A stretch of DNA of 64,000 nt from positions 1-64,000 of the forward strand of contig CAMYLJ010000002.1 of NCBI GenBank assembly GCA_947259215.1. The letters are read 5' to 3'. Positions 18,425 to 28,077 of this stretch are shown here, piece by piece. Position numbers and translations under genes: made by a program. This DNA is from an uncultured delta proteobacterium. Lineage in GTDB: Bacteria > Myxococcota_A > UBA9160 > JAFDET01. Below the pieces are notes generated by a model that saw only the letters and a list, made by a program, of their open reading frames with translations, ran no database searches and was not told where the DNA came from. Position 1 is the stretch's first letter. Each line of letters opens with the position of its first letter.

Positions 18425-20281
18425 TCAGGCCGTCCGGGCGCTCCCTTCGCCCCCCTCCTGGGCGCGGTATTGGAGCTGGTAGAGGCGGAAGTAGACCCCG
18501 CGGGATTCGAGCAGCCCCTCGTGGTGCCCGTCCTCCACCACCCGGCCCTTGTGGAGCACGTAGATCCGGTCCACGTCCTGGATCGTGGAGAGCCGGTGGG
18601 CGATGGCGATGGCGGTCTTGCCCTCCATCAAGGCGTGGATGCCGCGCTGGATGGCGGCCTCGGTCTCGGTGTCGATGGAGCTGGTGGCCTCGTCCAGGAT
18701 CAGCACGTCCGCCCCGTGGGCCACCGCCCGGGCGAAGGACAGGAGCTGGCGCTGGCCCGCGGACAGGTTGCTCCCCTGCTCCCGCAGCTCGCTGCGATAG
18801 CCGTCGGGCAGGCGCTCGATGAACCCGTGGGCCTCCACGCTGCGGGCCGCCAGCTCCAGGTCCGCGGGCGTGAGGTCGTCGCGCCCGAGCCCGATGTTCT
18901 CGGCGATGGTCCCGCTGAACAGGAAGACGTCCTGGAGCACCATGGCGACCCGCCGGCGCGCCTCGGCCTGAGGCATGTTGCGCAGGTCCACCCCGTCGAT
19001 CCTGATCTGGCCGCGCTGGGGCTCGTAGAGGCGCGCCAGCAGCTTGATGATCGAGGTCTTGCCCGCGCCCGTGTGCCCCACCAGCGCCACCTTCTCACCC
19101 GGGGCCACCCGGAAGGAGACGTCGCGCAGGATCCAGTCCTCGCCCTGGTAGGCGAACCAGACCCCGTCGAACTCCACCTCGCCGCGGCGCGGGGCCGTCA
19201 CGGCCGGCGCGTCGCCCCGGTCCTGGACCGCGGGCTCCGTATCCAGCAGCTGGAAGATGCGCTCGGCGCTGGCCATGGAAGACTGCATCACCGAGTACTT
19301 GGCTGACAGGTCGCGCAAGGGCATGAAGAAGAGCCGCATCCACTCGATGAAGACGTAGAACGTGCCCGCGCTGGCGATCCGGAAGCCGTAGCCGAGGATC
19401 ACGGCGAAGGTCAGGTTCTGCGCCACTTCCACGGCCGAGAAGAGCCCGGCCTCGTAGCGGTTCGAGCGCTGCCAGGCGTCCCGGTTCTCGGCGTTCATCG
19501 CCTCGAAGTCGCGCAGGTTCCGCAGCTCGCGGGTGAAGAGCTGCACCACCTTCATGCCGGTGATGGTCTCCTGGATCTGGGCGTTGATCCGCGCGAGCCA
19601 GACCCGCGTCTCGCGGAAGGCCTCGCGCACCTTCATGCGGAAGATCACCGCCACCACCGCCAGCACCGGCACCACCGCGAAGGTGATGAGCGCCAGCTCG
19701 GGGTTGAGCGCCAGCAGCGCCGCGGCGATCACGGCCATGAAGAGCACGTCGATCACCGCCTGCACGATTCCCGACGAGAACATCTCCGCCAGGTTCTCGA
19801 CGTCGTTGGTGGCCCGGGTGACCAGCCGCCCGACGGGGTAGCGGTCGAAGAAGCCGAGGTGGAGCTTCTGGATGTGGTCGAAGACGTCGCGACGCAGGTC
19901 GCGCATGGCGAGCTGACCGGTCCACGCCATCACGTACATGTTGAGGAAGCGCAGCGCCGCCATCGTGACGATCGTGACCGCGTACAGGATCAGGAGCCAC
20001 GCGAGCGGGGGCAGGCCGGCAGGCGCCTCGAAGATCCCGAGCAGCCAGTCGGGCCCCGGGACCTCGGCCGCTTCCGATCCGCCGCCGAAGACGCGATCCA
20101 GGCCCTGCTTCACGATCCAGGCGGGCGCGAGCTGCACCGCGAACAGCGGCGGCGCGATGGCCAGCGACAGCAGCACCAGCCACTTGTAGGGCCCGATGTA
20201 GGGAAGCAGCCGGCGCATGAGCCGCGCGTCGTAGGCCTTGCCGAGGGCGGCCTCCTCCTGGAATCCGTCGGGCGCGCTCAC
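18425..20281 (-). CDS. ABC exporter half-transporter (canonical-site subunit of a heterodimer)
   Basis: A 618-residue type IV ABC exporter: six membrane helices (about 25-330), then a nucleotide-binding domain with Walker A GHTGAGKTS, Walker B VLILDEATSS with the catalytic Glu, and an altered signature LSAGQ in place of LSGGQ. The GTG start overlaps the stop of the upstream exporter gene as GTGA. With its partner it should form an asymmetric exporter of the TM287/288 or LmrCD kind. The substrate is unknown; drugs, lipids or peptides are all possible. Confidence 0.93.
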   Translation of the reverse strand: MSAPDGFQEEAALGKAYDARLMRRLLPYIGPYKWLVLLSLAIAPPLFAVQLAPAWIVKQGLDRVFGGGSEAAEVPGPDWLLGIFEAPAGLPPLAWLLILYAVTIVTMAALRFLNMYVMAWTGQLAMRDLRRDVFDHIQKLHLGFFDRYPVGRLVTRATNDVENLAEMFSSGIVQAVIDVLFMAVIAAALLALNPELALITFAVVPVLAVVAVIFRMKVREAFRETRVWLARINAQIQETITGMKVVQLFTRELRNLRDFEAMNAENRDAWQRSNRYEAGLFSAVEVAQNLTFAVILGYGFRIASAGTFYVFIEWMRLFFMPLRDLSAKYSVMQSSMASAERIFQLLDTEPAVQDRGDAPAVTAPRRGEVEFDGVWFAYQGEDWILRDVSFRVAPGEKVALVGHTGAGKTSIIKLLARLYEPQRGQIRIDGVDLRNMPQAEARRRVAMVLQDVFLFSGTIAENIGLGRDDLTPADLELAARSVEAHGFIERLPDGYRSELREQGSNLSAGQRQLLSFARAVAHGADVLILDEATSSIDTETEAAIQRGIHALMEGKTAIAIAHRLSTIQDVDRIYVLHKGRVVEDGHHEGLLESRGVYFRLYQLQYRAQEGGEGSARTA

Positions 20282-22080
20282 GCCACCGACTCCTCGAGCT
20301 CTTCCTCGAGCGCCTGCTGCCGCGCCAGCCGAGCGTAGAAGCCACCCCGGAGCAGCAGCTCCTTGGGGCTGCCGAGCTCGCTGATCTCGCCGTCCTCGAG
20401 CACGGCCACCTGGTCGCAGTCGCGCACGCTCGAGATGCGGTGGGAGATCACGACCACGGTGCGCCCGCCGAACACCTCCGCCAGCGCGCGCTGGATGGCC
20501 TCCTCGGTGGCCGCGTCCACCGACGACAGCGTGTCGTCGAGGATCAGGATGCTCGGACTCAGCGCCAGGGCGCGCGCCAGAGCGGCGCGCTGACGCTGGC
20601 CGCCGGACAGCATGACCCCGCGCTCGCCCACCACGGTGGCGAGCCCGTGGGGCAGCTCCGCCAGATCCTGGGTCAGCTGCGCACGCTCCACGGCCTGGGC
20701 CACCCGGGCCGAGTCCACCTCGGGGAGACCGAACGCCACGTTCTCCGCCAGGCTGGTCGAGAACAGGAAGGCGTCCTGGGGAACCATGGCGATGCCGGCC
20801 CGCAGGTTCTGGAGGGAAATCCGGTTGACATCGATGCCGTCGATGAAGACCTGGCCGTCCGGGACCTCGTACAGGCGCGGGATCACCGAGGCCAGGGTCG
20901 TCTTGCCCGATCCGACCGGCCCCACGATCCCCAGGGTCGAGCCGGCGGGAACCCGCAGGGACACCCCGCGCAGCGCGGGCTCCCGCTCGGCACCCGGGTA
21001 CGCGAAGGTCAGGTCCCGGAACTCGATCTCTCCCCGCAGCTCGTCCAGCTCCACCATGTCGTCGCGATCCGCGATCGACGGCTCGGTCGCCAGCACCTCG
21101 TCGATGCGCTGCATGGCGGCACCGCCGCGCTGCACCAGGGCGAAGACCCAGCCCATGATGAAGGTGGGAAACGTGAGCTGTACGATCAGCATGGCGAAGG
21201 TGAAGAACTCGCCCTTCGTCATCTCGCCCGCGGGAATCTTGTAGCCGGCCATGCCGAGCACGATCAGCATGCCGAGGCTGGGCAACAGTCCCGTGATGGA
21301 GGGCATCGCGCCCATGACCCGCGTCAGCCGCAGGTGCCGGTGGAGCAGCGCCTCGTTGGCCCGGGCGAAGCGCCGCGCGGTGACGTTCTCCATGCCGTAG
21401 CTCTTCACCACCGCGATGCCGGAGATGGCCTCCTGGAGCTGGTTCGACAGGTCGCCGAGCCCCTCCTGCACCTCGATGCTCCAGCGGTGCATGCCCTTGC
21501 CGAAGCTCCGCGCGATCAGGATGAAGAGCGGGTACGGGATCAGCACCAGCAGCGCGAGCTGCCAGTCCATGGAGAACATGACGGCCAGGGCCCCGACGTA
21601 CAGGATCGGCGTCTGCACCACGGACAGCAGGCCTGGCCCGAGCAGCAGCCGCACGGAGTTCAGATCGTTCACGCAGCGGCTCATGAGGTCGCCGGTGCGC
21701 CAGCGGAAGTAGAAGGACTGGGGCAGGCGCTGCAGGTGCGCGAACAGGTCGTTGCGAAGCTCGTACTCGATCTCGCGAGCAGCGTTGAAGACCAGCACCC
21801 GCGAGAAGAAGCGCAGCGTGCCTGCGACGACGCCGACCGCCGCGAAGAGCAGGGCCATGCGCGTCACCTCCCGGGCGTCGGCTCCGGCCTCGGTCGCTTC
21901 GATGGTGCGGCCCAGCAGGATCGGGACCGCCAGGAAGCCAGCCACGTAGCCCAGGGTGATCACGGTCCAGCCGGCGTAGTAGCGGCGGTTGCGCCGGATG
22001 TACTGACCCAGACGGGCGACGGCGGCCCTGGCGGAGCTGCGGCCCTCGCGCAGGCGGGCGATGTCCGACGCGGCGCTCAT
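20278..22080 (-). CDS. ABC exporter half-transporter (degenerate-site subunit of a heterodimer)
   Basis: A 600-residue ABC exporter with six membrane helices and a nucleotide-binding domain. Walker A is GPVGSGKTT and the signature is the standard LSGGQRQR, but Walker B reads ILILDDTLSS, with Asp where the catalytic Glu should be. That, together with LSAGQ in the next gene, is the pattern of heterodimeric exporters with one degenerate ATP site. The ATG overlaps the glycosyltransferase stop as ATGA. Confidence 0.93.
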   Translation of the reverse strand: MSAASDIARLREGRSSARAAVARLGQYIRRNRRYYAGWTVITLGYVAGFLAVPILLGRTIEATEAGADAREVTRMALLFAAVGVVAGTLRFFSRVLVFNAAREIEYELRNDLFAHLQRLPQSFYFRWRTGDLMSRCVNDLNSVRLLLGPGLLSVVQTPILYVGALAVMFSMDWQLALLVLIPYPLFILIARSFGKGMHRWSIEVQEGLGDLSNQLQEAISGIAVVKSYGMENVTARRFARANEALLHRHLRLTRVMGAMPSITGLLPSLGMLIVLGMAGYKIPAGEMTKGEFFTFAMLIVQLTFPTFIMGWVFALVQRGGAAMQRIDEVLATEPSIADRDDMVELDELRGEIEFRDLTFAYPGAEREPALRGVSLRVPAGSTLGIVGPVGSGKTTLASVIPRLYEVPDGQVFIDGIDVNRISLQNLRAGIAMVPQDAFLFSTSLAENVAFGLPEVDSARVAQAVERAQLTQDLAELPHGLATVVGERGVMLSGGQRQRAALARALALSPSILILDDTLSSVDAATEEAIQRALAEVFGGRTVVVISHRISSVRDCDQVAVLEDGEISELGSPKELLLRGGFYARLARQQALEEELEESVA

Positions 22081-22742
22081 CGGGCGTACCACCCGGCCAC
22101 GCGTCTGCGGTCCAGGCCGAAGCGCCAGGCCAGCAGCGCGGCCCAGTTGCGCAGCATGTGTCGCAGCGGCCGGGCCGCGTAGCGACGCGCCGAGGTCACC
22201 ACCGTCTCGGGCAGGATCACGATGCGTCCGTGTCGTCCCACTGCTCGCACCAGGTCCAGGTCCTCCATGATCGGCGCCTGCGGCACACCGCCCACCTTCT
22301 CCAGCACCGCGCGCCGCACGAAGAGCGCCTGATCGCCGTACGGGATCCGGAAGAGCGCCACTCGCAGCCACACGCCGAGCTCGATGAATCGCAGCCGCGC
22401 GCCCGCCTCCTGGAAGCGGAGCCCGAACGCGCCGCCCGCTACGCCCGGATCGGCCAGGCAGCGGCGAACCGCGTCCGCCCAGCCGGGCGGCAGGCGCGTG
22501 TCCGCGTGCAGGAAGACCAGCGCGTCGCCCGCAGCGTCCTCGGCGCCGATCTGGAGCTGATGCGCTCGCCCCGGGCCCGCGCAGCGCGTGCGCGCGCCCG
22601 CGGCCCGCGCCCGCTCCACGGTGGCGTCCTGGCTGCCGCCGTCCACCACCACCACGTCGATGTCGGGACCCTGCGCGCTCCGGACCGCGTCCGTCACCCG
22701 CCCCTCCTCCTCGAGAGCGGGAATCACGACCGTGATGCGCAC
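22077..22742 (-). CDS. Family 2 glycosyltransferase (TIGR04283-like)
   Basis: A 221-residue GT2-type enzyme. The N terminus ITVVIPALEEE, the VVVVDGGSQDATVE segment, FLHADTRLPP and GGAFGLRF match the small glycosyltransferase group named 'rSAM/selenodomain-associated transferase 2'. MEDLDLVRAV near residue 158 fits the ED acceptor-site motif. The acceptor is unknown. It is the first gene of a unit with the two ABC half-exporters, which suggests glycosylation of an exported compound, though this is only inference. Confidence 0.85.
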   Translation of the reverse strand: MRITVVIPALEEEGRVTDAVRSAQGPDIDVVVVDGGSQDATVERARAAGARTRCAGPGRAHQLQIGAEDAAGDALVFLHADTRLPPGWADAVRRCLADPGVAGGAFGLRFQEAGARLRFIELGVWLRVALFRIPYGDQALFVRRAVLEKVGGVPQAPIMEDLDLVRAVGRHGRIVILPETVVTSARRYAARPLRHMLRNWAALLAWRFGLDRRRVAGWYAR

Positions 22743-22760
22743 CGGAGGACGGTAGCTGAT

Positions 22761-22790
22761 TTGACAGCGCGGCGACCCTTCCCGTATCCA
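22761..22790 (+). promoter_or_regulatory. Strong candidate promoter of purM, giving a leaderless transcript
   Basis: A perfect TTGACA (22761-22766), an 18-base spacer and TATCCA (22785-22790). The expected transcription start, about seven bases past the -10 box, falls on the GTG that starts purM at 22797. There is no room for a ribosome binding site. Confidence 0.6.
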
Positions 22791-22796
22791 TGCGCC

Positions 22797-23891
22797 GTGG
22801 CCCCCCGCTCACCCCGCCGCCCGGATCCGCCCACGGCCCCCGCCTACGCCCAGGCCGGGGTCGACCTGGATCACGACGAGGGCTTCATCGCGCGCGTCCG
22901 CGAGATCGCGCGGGGCGCCAGCCGCCCCGAGGTGCTGTCATCGATCGGCGGCTTCGCCGGGCTCTTCAAGGCACCCGACCGCTACACGGAGCCCGTGTTC
23001 GTGGCGGGCGCCGACGGCGTCGGCACCAAGCTGAAGCTCGCGGCCCAGGTCGGCCGCTACGACACCGTCGGAATCGACTGCGTGGCCATGGTGGTGAACG
23101 ACCTGGTCGTGCAGGGCGCCGAGCCGCTGGTCTTCCTCGACTACCTGGCCATGGGCGAGCTCGACGCCGAGATCGCCGAGGGGGCGTTGGGCGGCGTGGC
23201 CGAGGGCTGTCGGCGCGCGGGCTGCGCGCTGCTCGGCGGCGAGACCGCCACCATGCCCGGCGTCTACCCGAAGGGCGAGGTCGAGCTGGTGGGATTCGGC
23301 GTGGGGGTGGTGGAGCGCGAGAAGGTGGTCGACGGCTCCGCCATTCGGACCGGCGACGTGATCCTCGGCCTGACCTCCAACGGCGTCCACGCCAACGGCT
23401 TCTCGCTCGTGCGCGCCGCCCTGGAGGAGGGAGACGCCGCCGGGCAGCTCGACCTGTTCGCCGAGAACCCCGACCTGAACACCACCCTGGCCAGCGCCCT
23501 GCTCGCGCCGACCCGCATCTACGTGAAGCCGGTCCTGAACCTGCTGCGCGACTTCGAGCTGCACGGGATCGTCCACGTGACCGGCGGCGGCTTCGCGGGC
23601 AACGTGCCGCGCATCCTGCCCGACGGCCTGCAGGCCCGGATCGACCCGGAGGCCTGGCCCCGGCCGCCCATCTTCGGCTGGGTCCAGCGGCACAAGGAGG
23701 TGCACCCGGAGGAGATGTTGCGGGTCTTCAACTGCGGCATCGGGCTGGTGGTCTTCGTGGCGCCCGAGCAGGCGGAGGACGTCGCCGACCGACTGCGCGC
23801 GCTCGGCGAGCGCTCCCACCGGATCGGCGCCGTGGCCCGGCGCGAGGCGGAAGAGCCGGCGCTGGCCTTCGCTCCCGGCGCGGCCGAGTGA
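22797..23891 (+). CDS. purM: Phosphoribosylformylglycinamidine cyclo-ligase
   Basis: Makes aminoimidazole ribonucleotide in purine synthesis. The product is 364 residues. Clear marks are FVAGADGVGTKLKLA, GIDCVAMVVNDLVVQGAEPL, LGGETATMPGVY, TSNGVHANGFSLVR, and THVTGGG-type ATP-grasp-like segment (VHVTGGGFAGNVPR). The only suitable start in frame is GTG at 22797; the ATG at 22789 is out of frame. The start coincides with the predicted transcription start. A divergent glycosyltransferase starts 55 bases away. Confidence 0.95.
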   Translation: MAPRSPRRPDPPTAPAYAQAGVDLDHDEGFIARVREIARGASRPEVLSSIGGFAGLFKAPDRYTEPVFVAGADGVGTKLKLAAQVGRYDTVGIDCVAMVVNDLVVQGAEPLVFLDYLAMGELDAEIAEGALGGVAEGCRRAGCALLGGETATMPGVYPKGEVELVGFGVGVVEREKVVDGSAIRTGDVILGLTSNGVHANGFSLVRAALEEGDAAGQLDLFAENPDLNTTLASALLAPTRIYVKPVLNLLRDFELHGIVHVTGGGFAGNVPRILPDGLQARIDPEAWPRPPIFGWVQRHKEVHPEEMLRVFNCGIGLVVFVAPEQAEDVADRLRALGERSHRIGAVARREAEEPALAFAPGAAE

Positions 23892-23894
23892 CCC

Positions 23895-25301
23895 ATGGCG
23901 AAGCTTCCCGCCGCCGGCTCGCCCACCCAGCTGCGCGCGCGCCGCTGGGACGCGGTGGTCCTGGGGAGCTCGCTGCCCGGACTGGTGGCAGCCGCGCGCC
24001 TGGGGCTGGCGGGCCGCCGCGTGCTGGTGGTCGAGGAAGAGGCCGCCGCCCGCAGCTTCCCGCCCCTGCGTGAGCCGTTCCTGCTGACGGGCGCGGGCGA
24101 CGGCGTGCTGGGAGAGGTGCTGCGGGAGCTGCGGATGCCGCTGATCGACGTGCGGCGACTCGAACCCGATCCCGTGGCCTACCAGCTGGTCCTCCCCGAG
24201 GCCCGCATCGACGTGGGCGCGCCGGCGCGCACCGCCGAGGAGCTGGTCACCTGGGGACTCTCCAAGCCCGACGCCATCCAGCCCACGCTGCGCGGCCTCG
24301 CGCGGGCGGCGGCCGCCGAGCGCGACGCCATGCTGGCGTCGCCCGTGGTGCGGGCCAGCGGCCTGCGCCGGATCGGGCGCAGCGCGGTCCCGCCGACGCG
24401 CCACGCCCGCGGCATGCCGGCCGAGGCCGCGGACGCGCCGCCCGAGCTGGCTCCCTTCTTCGAGGCCCAGGTCCAGGCCCTGTCGCAGCTCGCGGGCAGC
24501 GACCCGGGCCCGGAAGCGCGCGCGCGCCTGCTGGGGAGCGCGCTCGAAGGCGGGTTCGCCTTCCCCACCTCGGAGCACGGGCTGCGCGAGCTGCTGCGCG
24601 AGCGGATCCGCTCGCTGCACGGGGAGTTCCGCTCCCTGTCGGGCGGCTTCGCCCTGGTGGCCGCGGACAGCGAGCCTGGGGTGGCTCCCGCTCGCAGTCG
24701 CGACCTGTGGCTCGGGCGCGCGCTCGTGCTGAACGCGCCGGCCGGGCTGGTCGGCGCCGTGCTGCGCGAGGCGGACGCCCCGGTGCCCGAGCTGGTCGAC
24801 CAGCCCCCGCCCCCGCGGCGCCGGCGCGTCGTGCACCTGCGCGGTCGCCGCGACGTCCTGCCCGAGGCCATGGCCCGCCGAGTGGTCCTCGTGGCCGATC
24901 CGAGCCGTCCGCTCGAGGGCACGAACCTCGTGACGCTGGCCGTCTACCCGCTCTCCCCCACCAGCGACGTGGTGGACCTGGTGGCGGCGGCGGTCGTCCC
25001 GACCGACGACCCGGAGCCCGAGGCGCGGGATGCGGAGATCGAGGCGGCGGTGGCGCGGCTCCTGCCCTTCGCCGAGGGCCGCCTGGTGCGCCAGCCGGTG
25101 GCGACTCCGCGCTGGGACGACGAGGGCGCCCGCGAAGACCCGGTCCGCGGCGCCGCCTGGCCGGCCGAGATCGAGATCCGCGCCTCGGCGCGTCCGCCGG
25201 TCTACCGCCTCGCCCGCGCGTTCCTCGGCGGGCTCGGGCTGGAGGGCGACCTGCTCCTCGGCTGGCGCGCCGGAGACCGGATCGCGGCGGACCTGCGCTA
25301 G
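23895..25301 (+). CDS. FAD-dependent oxidoreductase, phytoene-desaturase-like (divergent)
   Basis: A 468-residue protein with an N-terminal Rossmann fold (WDAVVLGSSLPGLVAAARL, then GRRVLVVEE). The usual GxGxxG reads GSSLPG. A Gly-rich N-terminal motif followed by FLLTGAGDGVL, and a central segment EHGLRELLRERI, recall the amine oxidase/phytoene desaturase group. The C-terminal FAD motif is not obvious. The function is unknown. It begins 3 bases after purM and may be co-transcribed. Confidence 0.6.
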   Translation: MAKLPAAGSPTQLRARRWDAVVLGSSLPGLVAAARLGLAGRRVLVVEEEAAARSFPPLREPFLLTGAGDGVLGEVLRELRMPLIDVRRLEPDPVAYQLVLPEARIDVGAPARTAEELVTWGLSKPDAIQPTLRGLARAAAAERDAMLASPVVRASGLRRIGRSAVPPTRHARGMPAEAADAPPELAPFFEAQVQALSQLAGSDPGPEARARLLGSALEGGFAFPTSEHGLRELLRERIRSLHGEFRSLSGGFALVAADSEPGVAPARSRDLWLGRALVLNAPAGLVGAVLREADAPVPELVDQPPPPRRRRVVHLRGRRDVLPEAMARRVVLVADPSRPLEGTNLVTLAVYPLSPTSDVVDLVAAAVVPTDDPEPEARDAEIEAAVARLLPFAEGRLVRQPVATPRWDDEGAREDPVRGAAWPAEIEIRASARPPVYRLARAFLGGLGLEGDLLLGWRAGDRIAADLR

Positions 25302-25380
25302 CTTCCCGCCAGTTCCCCTCTGGGAGAATCTCCTTCCATGACGAATGCTTGCGGGACATCGGGGTCCGCCGTCCCGAGCG

Positions 25381-25546
25381 GGCGCGGAGGCTCTTTCTCG
25401 TCGGGCCGCGGACTCTGGTTTCCCGCACGCGGCGCGAAGGCGCTCATCCTCGGCCTTCGCCGGGCTCCGCCCGGCGGCTCGGCCTTCGCCCGCCTGCGGC
25501 TCGCTGCGCGCGCCGCCTTCGGCGGCGCTTGCGGGAGCCCGACGCG
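25381..25546 (+). repeat. Dispersed structured repeat, copy A (partial)
   Basis: Non-coding stretch between the oxidoreductase and the msbA-like gene (245-base gap from 25302). It shares blocks with copies at 28081-28440 (inverted) and 40445-40868. Block 25396-25411 is identical to the complement of 28386-28401. Block 25452-25489 matches 40498-40535 with three differences in 38. Block 25498-25534 matches the complement of 28295-28331 with one difference in 37. Two hairpins are seen: 25458-25476 (8-base-pair stem, 3-base loop) and 25513-25531 (8-base-pair stem GCGCCGCC, loop TTC). The end runs into the ribosome site (GGGAG) of the next gene. Confidence 0.8.
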
Positions 25547-27328
25547 GTGAGCGGGCGAGCGACCCTCGGTCGCCTGGCGGGCTACGCCCGCCCCTACCTT
25601 CCGCTGGTGGCAGCGGCGCTGGCCTTGGCCGCCGTCCACGCCGCCAGCCAGGGCGCCCTGGCCTGGCTCGTGAAGCCGCTGCTGGACCTGGTGGGCGGCG
25701 CGCCGGAGACGGCCGCCGCCATCCCCCTGCCCTTCGCGGCGGACTCCGGGGGCGACGTCGAGGACCAGGCCAAGCGCCTGATCGCCGCAGGCCTGGTGCT
25801 GGTGGTCGTCGTCTCCGCGGCCCACTTCGGCAAGGAGTACCTGACCCGCTTCACCCTGGGCCGGATCCTGGTCGACCTGCAACGCGACCTCTGCCGCAAG
25901 CTCCTGACGCTGCCTCTGGGCTTCCACCACAGCCTGCGCCGCGGCGACGCGCTCTCGCGCATCCTGAACGACACGACGCGCGCGCACCACTCGCTGGCGA
26001 CGATGCTCGGCGACTTCATCCCGGCGGTGCTGGCGGTGGCGGTGTACGCGACGATCCTGGTCGGCCTGTCGTGGCAGCTCAGCCTGGCCGCGCTGGCGGC
26101 CGCGCCCCTGGTGCTGGGACCGGTGGCCATCTTCGGGCGCCGGGTGCGCAAGAGCGCGCGACGCCGCCAGGAGACCCTCGGTGAGGTGACCCAGCGCCTG
26201 GTGCAGATCCTGTCGGGCATCAAGATCATCCAGGCCTTCCGCGCCGAGGCCCTCGAGGAGGCGGCCTTCGACGCCGAGAACCAGCGCTTCTTCCGCCGCC
26301 ACATGAAGGTGGCGAAGAACCGGGTGCTCTCGTCGACGGTGGTGGAGGCGCTGACGAGCGCGGTCGCGGTGGGCGCGCTCGGCGCCGGCGTGCTGCTCGC
26401 GCTGCGCGGCCAGTGGGGCCTCACGTTCGGCGACATCGGCGCCTTCGTGGTGGTGCTCCAGCGCACCTACCGACCCGCCAAGGACCTCACCAGGGGCTGG
26501 AACTCGATCATGGAGGCGCTGCCCTCCGCCGAGCGCTTCTTCGAACTGCTCGACGAGCCCGAGGGCCGCGCGGCCGATCCCGGGCCGCGGGTCACCTTCC
26601 CCGGACTGCAACAAGGGATCCGCCTGCGAGACGTCCACTTCTCCTACGGCCGCGAGCCGGTGCTCCAGGGGGTTTCCCTGGACATCCGCGCCGGCGAGGT
26701 GGTCGCGCTGGTGGGGCGCACGGGCGCCGGCAAGACCACCCTGGCGGACCTGCTGCTCGGCTTCTACCAGCCCGACGCCGGGACGATCGAGTTCGACGGC
26801 AGCGACCTGCGCGTCCTGGATCGCGACTCGTTCCTGGCCCGGGCCTCGGTGGTGACCCAGGAGCCCTTCCTGTTTCCGGGCAGCATCGCCGACAACATCC
26901 GCTACGGCCGACCCGAGGCCGCCGACGCGGAGGTCGAGGCCGCCGCCAAGGCCGCCCACGTGGACGAGTTCGTCGGCACGCTACCCGACGGATTCGCCAC
27001 CGAGGTGGGTGAGGCGGGCGTGAAGCTCTCGGGCGGTCAGCGCCAGCGCATCACGATCGCGCGCGCGATCCTGAAGAACCCGGACCTGCTGGTCTTCGAC
27101 GAGGCCACGAGCTCCCTCGACACGAAGAGCGAGCGCCTGGTGCAGGAGGCCATCGACCGGCTCCTCGCGGGCCGCACGGTGATCGTGATCGCGCACCGTC
27201 TCTCCACGGTGCGGCACGCGGACAAGATCGTGGTGCTCGAGGAAGGCCGCATCGCCCACGCGGGCAGCCACGAGGAGCTGGCGAGCCGGGAGGGCCTCTA
27301 CCGAGAGCTGCTCTCGCTCCACCGCTGA
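25547..27328 (+). CDS. msbA: ABC exporter of the MsbA type (lipid A flippase family)
   Basis: A 593-residue homodimer-type exporter, close to the usual MsbA length. Six membrane helices are followed by Walker A GRTGAGKTT, signature KLSGGQRQR and Walker B LLVFDEATSSLD with the catalytic Glu. The GTG at 25547 follows GGGAG by nine bases. In a genome full of lipid A genes the likely cargo is lipid A-core, but a distinct substrate cannot be excluded. The gene overlaps the selenoprotein gene by one base (TGATG). Confidence 0.85.
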   Translation: MSGRATLGRLAGYARPYLPLVAAALALAAVHAASQGALAWLVKPLLDLVGGAPETAAAIPLPFAADSGGDVEDQAKRLIAAGLVLVVVVSAAHFGKEYLTRFTLGRILVDLQRDLCRKLLTLPLGFHHSLRRGDALSRILNDTTRAHHSLATMLGDFIPAVLAVAVYATILVGLSWQLSLAALAAAPLVLGPVAIFGRRVRKSARRRQETLGEVTQRLVQILSGIKIIQAFRAEALEEAAFDAENQRFFRRHMKVAKNRVLSSTVVEALTSAVAVGALGAGVLLALRGQWGLTFGDIGAFVVVLQRTYRPAKDLTRGWNSIMEALPSAERFFELLDEPEGRAADPGPRVTFPGLQQGIRLRDVHFSYGREPVLQGVSLDIRAGEVVALVGRTGAGKTTLADLLLGFYQPDAGTIEFDGSDLRVLDRDSFLARASVVTQEPFLFPGSIADNIRYGRPEAADAEVEAAAKAAHVDEFVGTLPDGFATEVGEAGVKLSGGQRQRITIARAILKNPDLLVFDEATSSLDTKSERLVQEAIDRLLAGRTVIVIAHRLSTVRHADKIVVLEEGRIAHAGSHEELASREGLYRELLSLHR

Positions 27329-28077
27329 TGGGTTCCTTCGACGAGTTCCCGCTCCACTACCGGACCTTCCTGCGCGCGTACCCCTGGCGGCGCATCGATC
27401 CCGTGCCCTGGACGCCGCTCGCCAAGCCCCTGGCCGAGTGCCGGCTGGCGCTGGTTTCGAGCGCGGGGCTGGTGCTGCCGGACCAGGCCCCCTTCGACGC
27501 GTCGATCCGCGGCGGCGACCCGAGCTTCCGCCGCATCCCGAGCGACACGGACCCGACGCTCCTGCGCGACACCCACCGCAGCGACGCGTACGATCACGCG
27601 GGCATCGCTCGCGACGCGAACCTGGCGCTACCGCTCGAACGCGCGCGCGAGCTGGTCGCCCGTGGCCGCATCGGCTCGCTGGCGACCCGCCACCTCTCGT
27701 TCATGGGGTCGATCACCGCCCCCGGCCGCCTGATGCGCGACAGCGCGCCGGCGGCGGCCGCCGAGCTGGCGGCCGACGCCGTCGACGTCGCCCTGCTCGT
27801 CCCCGTCTGACCGATGTGCAACCAGGCGGTCGGCCTGGTCGCGGCGGAGCTCGAGCGGCACGGGATCGCCACGGTCTGCCTCCAGCTGCTGCGGCGCGTG
27901 GCGGAGCGGGTGCGGCCCCCGCGCGCCCTCTGGCTGCCCTTCCTCCACGGCTTCCCCCTCGACACCCCGGGCGACCCCGAGCGCCAGCACGCGGTCCTCG
28001 AAGCCGCACTCCAGCTGGTCGAGCGGGCCGACGCGCGGCCTCCGCTGCTGGTGGACTACGAGGCGCCGCGGGCCTGA
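27328..28077 (+). CDS. Selenoprotein, GrdB/PrdB family (in-frame UGA read as selenocysteine)
   Basis: Read through a single in-frame TGA at 27808-27810, this is one 249-residue protein with Sec161. The join reads LLVPV-U-P-M-C-N-Q-A-V-G, a UxxC redox motif in the position where glycine/sarcosine/betaine and proline reductase selenoprotein B relatives carry UPxC. Both halves fit that family: PLAKPLAECRLALVSSAG, then LRDTHRSDAYDHAG and LSFMGSI before the UGA, and GLVAAELERHGIATVCL after it. A SECIS-like hairpin follows the UGA at 27821-27839. The ATG overlaps the msbA stop. The natural substrate is unknown, and a stop at 27810 with two separate short genes is the less likely reading. Sec synthesis genes are not in the window. 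Confidence 0.85.
27821..27839 (+). promoter_or_regulatory. SECIS-like hairpin
   Basis: Ten bases after the UGA codon at 27808-27810 begins a perfect 7-base-pair stem (ACCAGGC with GCCTGGT) and a five-base loop GGTCG. Bacterial SECIS elements lie just downstream of the UGA, with the loop at roughly this distance, and the E. coli fdhF element has a GGUC loop contacted by SelB. No bulged U as in fdhF is visible, which is a caveat. Confidence 0.65.

Follow-up and report, generated by a model that had tools for sequence, protein, structure and literature searches.

The window analysed here is a stretch of 64,000 nucleotides from an uncultured delta proteobacterium (assembly GCA_947259215.1, contig CAMYLJ010000002.1, positions 1 to 64,000 of the forward strand), and it contains a reading frame that would encode a selenoprotein related to PrdB, a subunit of D-proline reductase. 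The frame starts with the ATG at 27328, ends with the TGA at 28075–28077 and holds a single in-frame TGA at 27808–27810, with 160 codons before it and 88 after it. Reading through this codon gives a product of 249 residues that runs VPV-U-PMCNQ at the join, where U is selenocysteine (Sec). In a mechanical list of open reading frames (ORFs), the gene is split into 27328–27810 and 27814–28077, the second from the ATG at 27814. An earlier note on this DNA had given the same start, UGA and open frame to 28077, which are right on re-reading, and the short protein and false second gene that it expected from standard gene calling are both in the list. The gene itself is an ordinary case of a selenoprotein split into two ORFs by its UGA. 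The locus comprises the following features:

27328–28077, plus strand: gene for a predicted PrdB-like selenoprotein; coding is conserved across the UGA, and the NCBIfam PrdB model TIGR04483 matches residues 27–235 at 6e-33.
27808–27810, plus strand: UGA codon predicted to be read as Sec, U161 of the motif U-P-M-C; UGA is aligned here in homologous loci.
27817–27819, plus strand: TGC codon for Cys164, the second residue of the U-x-x-C pair according to aligned proteins.
27821–27839, plus strand: candidate bacterial selenocysteine insertion sequence (SECIS) hairpin with a 7-bp stem and the loop GGUCG; the evidence is covariation at four of the seven pairs, a synonymous-codon null and published rules.

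To judge from its homologues, Sec is almost certainly inserted at this UGA. The codon aligned with residue 161 was read by one script in 42 homologous loci, of which 41 were readable (L068, the GrdB gene of the related genome G053, was dropped because it gave no match at E 1e-3). The codon is TGA in all 41, followed by P-x-C. A 36-row tree groups the window within a clade of 19 orthologues (support 99/98), whose locus titles include Acidobacteriota, Thermoanaerobaculia, Planctomycetota, Verrucomicrobia and Deltaproteobacteria. The Deltaproteobacteria locus, L005, to which the tree tool gives the label Myxococcota, lies inside contig G010:C181, from a genome of the same order as the window, which makes Myxococcota the probable origin of the window. 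L005 also lies wholly within locus L059; the 20 clade loci listed therefore represent 19 distinct ones, and the 41 readable loci represent 40 distinct contigs, drawn from many assemblies. Of 60 related genomes (own genome included), 46 gave matches in a protein search, and a TGA lies within 96 of the 98 matches listed, the other two ending before residue 161. A wider draw, with at most nine candidates scored per genome, gave matches in 55 of 282 genomes of the phylum; among the matches listed, only two are without a TGA, and both end before residue 161. The UGA is exactly at codon 161 in all 18 clade members tested, and differences from the window after the UGA amount to 19.7% at first, 19.1% at second and 51.9% at third codon positions, a bias that points to selection on the read-through part. 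A sequencing error or a pseudogene, in which a sense codon has been misread or mutated to TGA, could be entertained for a draft genome of 128 contigs, but TGA at the same codon in so many loci and assemblies and the strong third-position bias behind it make this explanation practically negligible.

The earlier note had proposed that homologues would have Cys or Sec at position 161, and both occur. The Cys form is found in two plasmid-borne alphaproteobacterial homologues, from Roseomonas and Haematobacter, which read N-C-P-V-C and N-C-P-I-C at the site and use the codon TGC there; it was not seen among related genomes, in either the 60-genome set or the wider phylum draw. Cys164 is invariant in the aligned proteins (35 of 35 and 8 of 8). 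These homologues also bear on the possibility that the UGA is a real stop and that the locus holds two genes, for proteins of 160 and 87 residues. Both ORFs start with ATG, and the Pfam GRDB model (PF07355) spans residues 12–158 of the read-through protein and so matches the first half only, the second half alone being without a match. However, TIGR04483 runs unbroken across the join (114.2 bits), and both Cys homologues are annotated as one continuous protein across the site. The Met of the ATG at 27814 is replaced by T, V, L, D, F or N in other members, so there is no conserved second start, and two genes would give the covariation of the hairpin no role; such a split is extremely unlikely. 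Comparison with homologues confirms the frame 27328–28077 as one gene with an in-frame UGA, and its product is very probably a selenoprotein.

The hairpin begins ten bases past the UGA, with the arms ACCAGGC (27821–27827) and GCCTGGT (27833–27839) on either side of the loop GGTCG (27828–27832). Covariation was scored on 41 aligned stretches, 35 of them distinct, which over seven pairs give 245 cells. Standard pairing is kept in 96.7% of the cells (237), with two-sided changes at four of the seven pairs (39 cells). For both the pairing score and the covariation score, none of 500 shuffles was as high as the observed value; when the partner strand is slid along, pairing falls to 17–42%, and RNAalifold, unprompted, returns the same helix. 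Because the stretch is coding, each sequence was also recoded with synonymous codons as a null, and 2000 draws gave a mean of 165.9 paired cells (standard deviation 5.4, maximum 183) against the 237 observed. The hairpin also agrees with the published bacterial SECIS rules in PMC13188914: the loop has 5 nt and starts with GG, the stem has 7 bp, the distance from UGA to loop is 17 nt and the energy is −12.6 kcal/mol. Across the family, the G of these rules is present in 41 of 41 sequences, and 39 of 41 are within the energy limit for the hairpin alone, the other two having −7.1 and −7.0. The stem, loop and spacing described in the earlier note stand, and a role as SECIS is supported through the family, whereas the argument from the single sequence is weak.

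The machinery for Sec is complete in the own genome. Matches were found for selA (505.5 bits), selB (269.5 bits), selD (323.6 bits) and tRNA-Sec, or selC (73.7 bits, with the anticodon tca by ARAGORN), the four genes that the earlier note had listed as a check. The selD match (L047, G000:C5:77412–78338) contains one in-frame TGA, so the selenophosphate synthetase SelD is probably itself a selenoprotein. With the tRNA-Sec cut-off set, by our choice, at 60 bits, 44 of the 46 genomes with PrdB-like genes have a SelB or a tRNA-Sec that passes its cut-off, vs 10 of the 14 without. In one related genome, a PrdB-like gene (L054, G050:C58) and a selB match are separated by about 5.4 kb. An altered code or a suppressor that reads UGA as Trp or another residue would leave the frame open as well, but UGA terminates both the PrdB-like gene itself and the preceding exporter gene, two homologues have Cys at the site and the full Sec system is present, which leaves an altered code next to no probability. 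The central claim of the earlier note, a UGA-encoded Sec with a SECIS hairpin in a PrdB/GrdB homologue, thus came through the homologue and Sec-system comparisons that it had proposed, and a UGA-encoded PrdB-like selenoprotein is the highly likely identity of the gene.

The relation to the reductases that give the family its name is more distant. TIGR04483 is the best family for the protein, but the 114.2 bits fall short of the 300 bits set as equivalog cut-off, which two clostridial PrdB used as controls pass with 310.2 and 407.4. The match to PF07355 reaches 34.5 bits against a gathering score of 22 and covers profile positions 200–345 of 347 only. The profile matches mark the protein as a short PrdB relative. 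All 41 readable loci carry U-P-x-C, and U-G-T-C is the form in G053 GrdB and in both clostridial PrdB. Thus, the earlier note placed the site correctly, but its assignment of UPxC as the PrdB/GrdB motif does not hold, since the true enzymes here have U-G-T-C. The two clostridial PrdB (L082 4001–4684 and L081 3977–4690) also give weak matches to the NCBIfam UGSC model (2.1e-5 and 4.7e-4), hinting at a link between the two selenoprotein families.

The partner proteins of these reductases were searched for with profiles as well. The GrdE/PrdA proprotein model PF09338 gave no match in the own genome, a draft that is 95.7% complete, and among the 60 related genomes it matches one, G053, beside the separate GrdB. 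The PrdA model TIGR04480 gave one sub-threshold match among the 60 genomes (20.9 bits), at the position of the G053 GrdE. As a control, PF09338 and TIGR04480 both detect the true PrdA beside clostridial prdB. Two further searches were negative together with their controls: PF09338 gave no match in nine genomes holding orthologues, with the control in that search also without a match, and GrdA (PF04723) gave no match in the own genome, its controls likewise. In G053 (L068 and L052, G053:C117), a GrdB with U-G-T-C lies directly beside GrdE, apparently a true glycine-reductase-type pair, and the same genome has a partner-less PrdB-like gene. As no GrdE or PrdA was found, the protein is probably no D-proline or glycine reductase, as far as absence from a draft genome can indicate, and it is likely not a subunit of either enzyme. 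A PrdB subunit of a genuine D-proline reductase would be in keeping with TIGR04483 as the best family (6e-33) and with marine surveys, which file U-x-x-C proteins of such a type as PrdB. It is nevertheless very unlikely, given a score under the cut-off that the clostridial PrdB pass (310 and 407), the motif U-P-x-C rather than U-G-T-C, the failure to find PrdA in 59 of 60 genomes (the lone 20.9-bit match being at the G053 GrdE), the lack of a conserved neighbour and the presence of haem-copper oxidase genes. The own genome has two of the latter, which suggests a capacity for aerobic respiration.

Decoding of the gene would proceed through SelB and Sec-tRNA(Sec), which would read the UGA at 27808–27810 as Sec under the direction of the hairpin at 27821–27839; without SelB/SECIS decoding, translation would stop after 160 residues. 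Such decoding into one 249-residue selenoprotein is strongly supported by the codon and hairpin comparisons. For the protein itself, an AlphaFold2 model (ten sequences) has a mean predicted local distance difference test score (pLDDT) of 77.3 and a predicted template modelling score (pTM) of 0.81. It places Sec161 and Cys164 at the loop between a strand (154–158) and a helix (164–177). Redox-active U/C-x-x-C pairs usually sit between a strand and a helix. Given this placement, the most likely chemistry would be attack of the Sec161 selenolate on an electrophilic substrate, followed by an internal Se–S bond with Cys164, which cellular thiols would then reduce. The protein may work alone or with a partner other than GrdE/PrdA. 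As a whole, a stand-alone selenol reductase regenerated by thiols is a tentative mechanism, a little short of an even chance. A sequence search up to E 1 found no solved structure, and Foldseek with the model gave no match at E 0.001 or better. In VIA-align, LacI-type and other alpha/beta proteins reached Z values of at most 8.1; these matches are taken as a common arrangement only and not as a convincing fold match.

Several observations weigh against the reading of the locus as a SECIS-decoded, partner-less reductase. For the hairpin, two of five covariation measures do not exceed shuffles (197 of 500 for pairs with double changes, 256 of 500 for further pair types), and the covariation shuffles ignore the relatedness of the sequences. 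For the window sequence alone, the hairpin arises in 47.6% of synonymous recodings, which is not significant, and its fold is unexceptional against shuffles (z −1.52). The case for a SECIS is strong in its family evidence and weak in its single-sequence evidence. The association of PrdB-like genes with SelB or tRNA-Sec over the 60 genomes is modest (Fisher p 0.023), and two genomes (G011 and G053, drafts that are 94% and 84% complete) have PrdB-like genes but neither a SelB nor a tRNA-Sec that passes its cut-off (60 bits for tRNA-Sec). Genes may likewise be missing from the own draft, so the absence of a partner is probable and not proven. Finally, confidence in the model is medium (pLDDT 77) and no fold match to it is convincing, so the mechanism rests on the motif.

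Upstream of the gene lies an ORF for an exporter of the ATP-binding cassette (ABC) type, and in some relatives a serine hydrolase is found nearby:

24707–27328, plus strand: ABC exporter ORF with membrane domain and ATPase, by Pfam; not found beside relatives.
L056 6640–8088, L006 7582–9912, L007 7671–9965 and L009 6833–9145: PF00144 serine hydrolase near the orthologue, on sides that differ by lineage.

The exporter stop codon (TGA 27326–27328) shares its A with the ATG at 27328, and the two ORFs have the same direction. From this overlap, the protein could be thought to serve the MsbA-like exporter, for instance as a redox regulator or a modifier of its cargo. Against this stands the comparison with relatives: at none of the 18 further distinct loci of the clade does an ORF similar to the exporter adjoin the gene (blastp, threshold E 1e-12; in four of the 18, one flank is shorter than 1 kb), three loci have an ORF with weak similarity to the exporter at least 1.9 kb away, and the neighbours differ from locus to locus. 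Service to the exporter is therefore very unlikely. The coupling to which the earlier note drew attention is present in the own genome as an overlap, but it is a poor lead and says little on function, since the exporter is not beside the relatives. Neighbours named by Pfam vary by locus and include flagellin, an RNB-domain protein, glutamate dehydrogenase, an SLT transglycosylase, a P450 and a sulfatase, among others; chosen neighbours were searched at 17 of the 19 loci (window included, all but L010 and L058), and about one-third of neighbour ORFs had no match. Gene neighbourhood was dropped as a guide to function, no partner being conserved in the 19 distinct clade loci. The PF00144 hydrolase, which adjoins the gene or is one gene off at L006, L007 and L009 (by Pfam), at L010 (by similarity) and in G040 (on the other side), was set aside because the first four loci are close relatives. 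By eye from ORF translations, the region further upstream in the window (18425–22812) has additional ABC exporter-like ORFs on the minus strand, as well as sugar kinase, glycosyltransferase-like and hldE-like ORFs. The Roseomonas Cys homologue (L079 2911–3819) adjoins a gene for SelO, a protein adenylyltransferase.

The own genome has two further PrdB-like paralogues, which fall in other clades of the tree. Both (L063 8149–8796 and L064 3656–4264, on G000:C14 and C18) have an in-frame UGA and a hairpin of the same type. Neighbours of paralogues, among those listed and viewed by eye, offered nothing usable. In the phylum of the window, U-P-x-C proteins reach up to seven matches per genome; seven PrdB-like matches, including a weak one, occur in one related genome (G178), where two lie about 4.5 kb apart on one contig. 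No relative of the protein was found in viral contigs, and phage records gave no match to it.

Selenoproteins labelled PrdB are already known from marine surveys, and the window gene adds one more. In the Sargasso Sea, 'PrdB' (U-x-x-C) was the third most abundant known selenoprotein family, with 42 genes (PMC1088965), and the Global Ocean Sampling data yielded 235 'PrdB' sequences and 110 Cys homologues (PMC2398784). In reviews, D-proline reductase appears under TIGR04483 with the motif U-x-x-C (PMC9312934, PMC13188914). In that enzyme a Sec protein is paired with a pyruvoyl protein (PMC10298544), derived from the proprotein PrdA according to a reference title listed there. No study of partner-less PrdB-like proteins was found in the open-licence literature, as represented by titles and the openings of abstracts. 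The family, which is widespread and has received little study, matters more than the single gene, as 'PrdB' is among the most abundant selenoproteins in the two marine surveys. A large stand-alone family with U-P-x-C or C-P-x-C that carries out selenium-dependent reduction without a pyruvoyl partner may exist, an idea still more tentative than the mechanism above, and the marine 'PrdB' would then be a different enzyme. If the marine proteins also have U-P-x-C and are without PrdA, 'proline reductase' misnames a common selenoprotein. If the stand-alone reductase is true, it would represent selenium-dependent chemistry in bacteria of which at least one has aerobic oxidases.

The marine 'PrdB' resemble the window protein by description only: they have U-x-x-C (and pfam07355 in PMC2398784) and are abundant in environmental bacteria. 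The papers name them proline reductase. Closer comparisons can be made with three groups of proteins. With the PrdB of Acetoanaerobium noterae and Peptoclostridium acidaminophilum, the window protein shares near-full-length homology, a similar size, the Sec column and the Cys three residues on; it differs from true PrdB in having U-P-x-C and not U-G-T-C, in scoring far under the cut-off and in that no PrdA was found in its genome. With GrdB, GrdF and GrdH (PF07355), it shares the C-terminal PF07355 part and the Sec region of the longer NCBIfam models, but it has 249 residues vs about 430 (the NCBIfam profiles have 431–435 positions), and no GrdE was found. The Cys homologues of Roseomonas and Haematobacter, annotated as 'glycine/sarcosine/betaine reductase selenoprotein B family protein', lack an annotated PrdA gene within 3 kb and share the site of the N-C-P-x-C-H-Q type; they differ in having Cys for Sec and, with 302 and 308 residues, longer ends.

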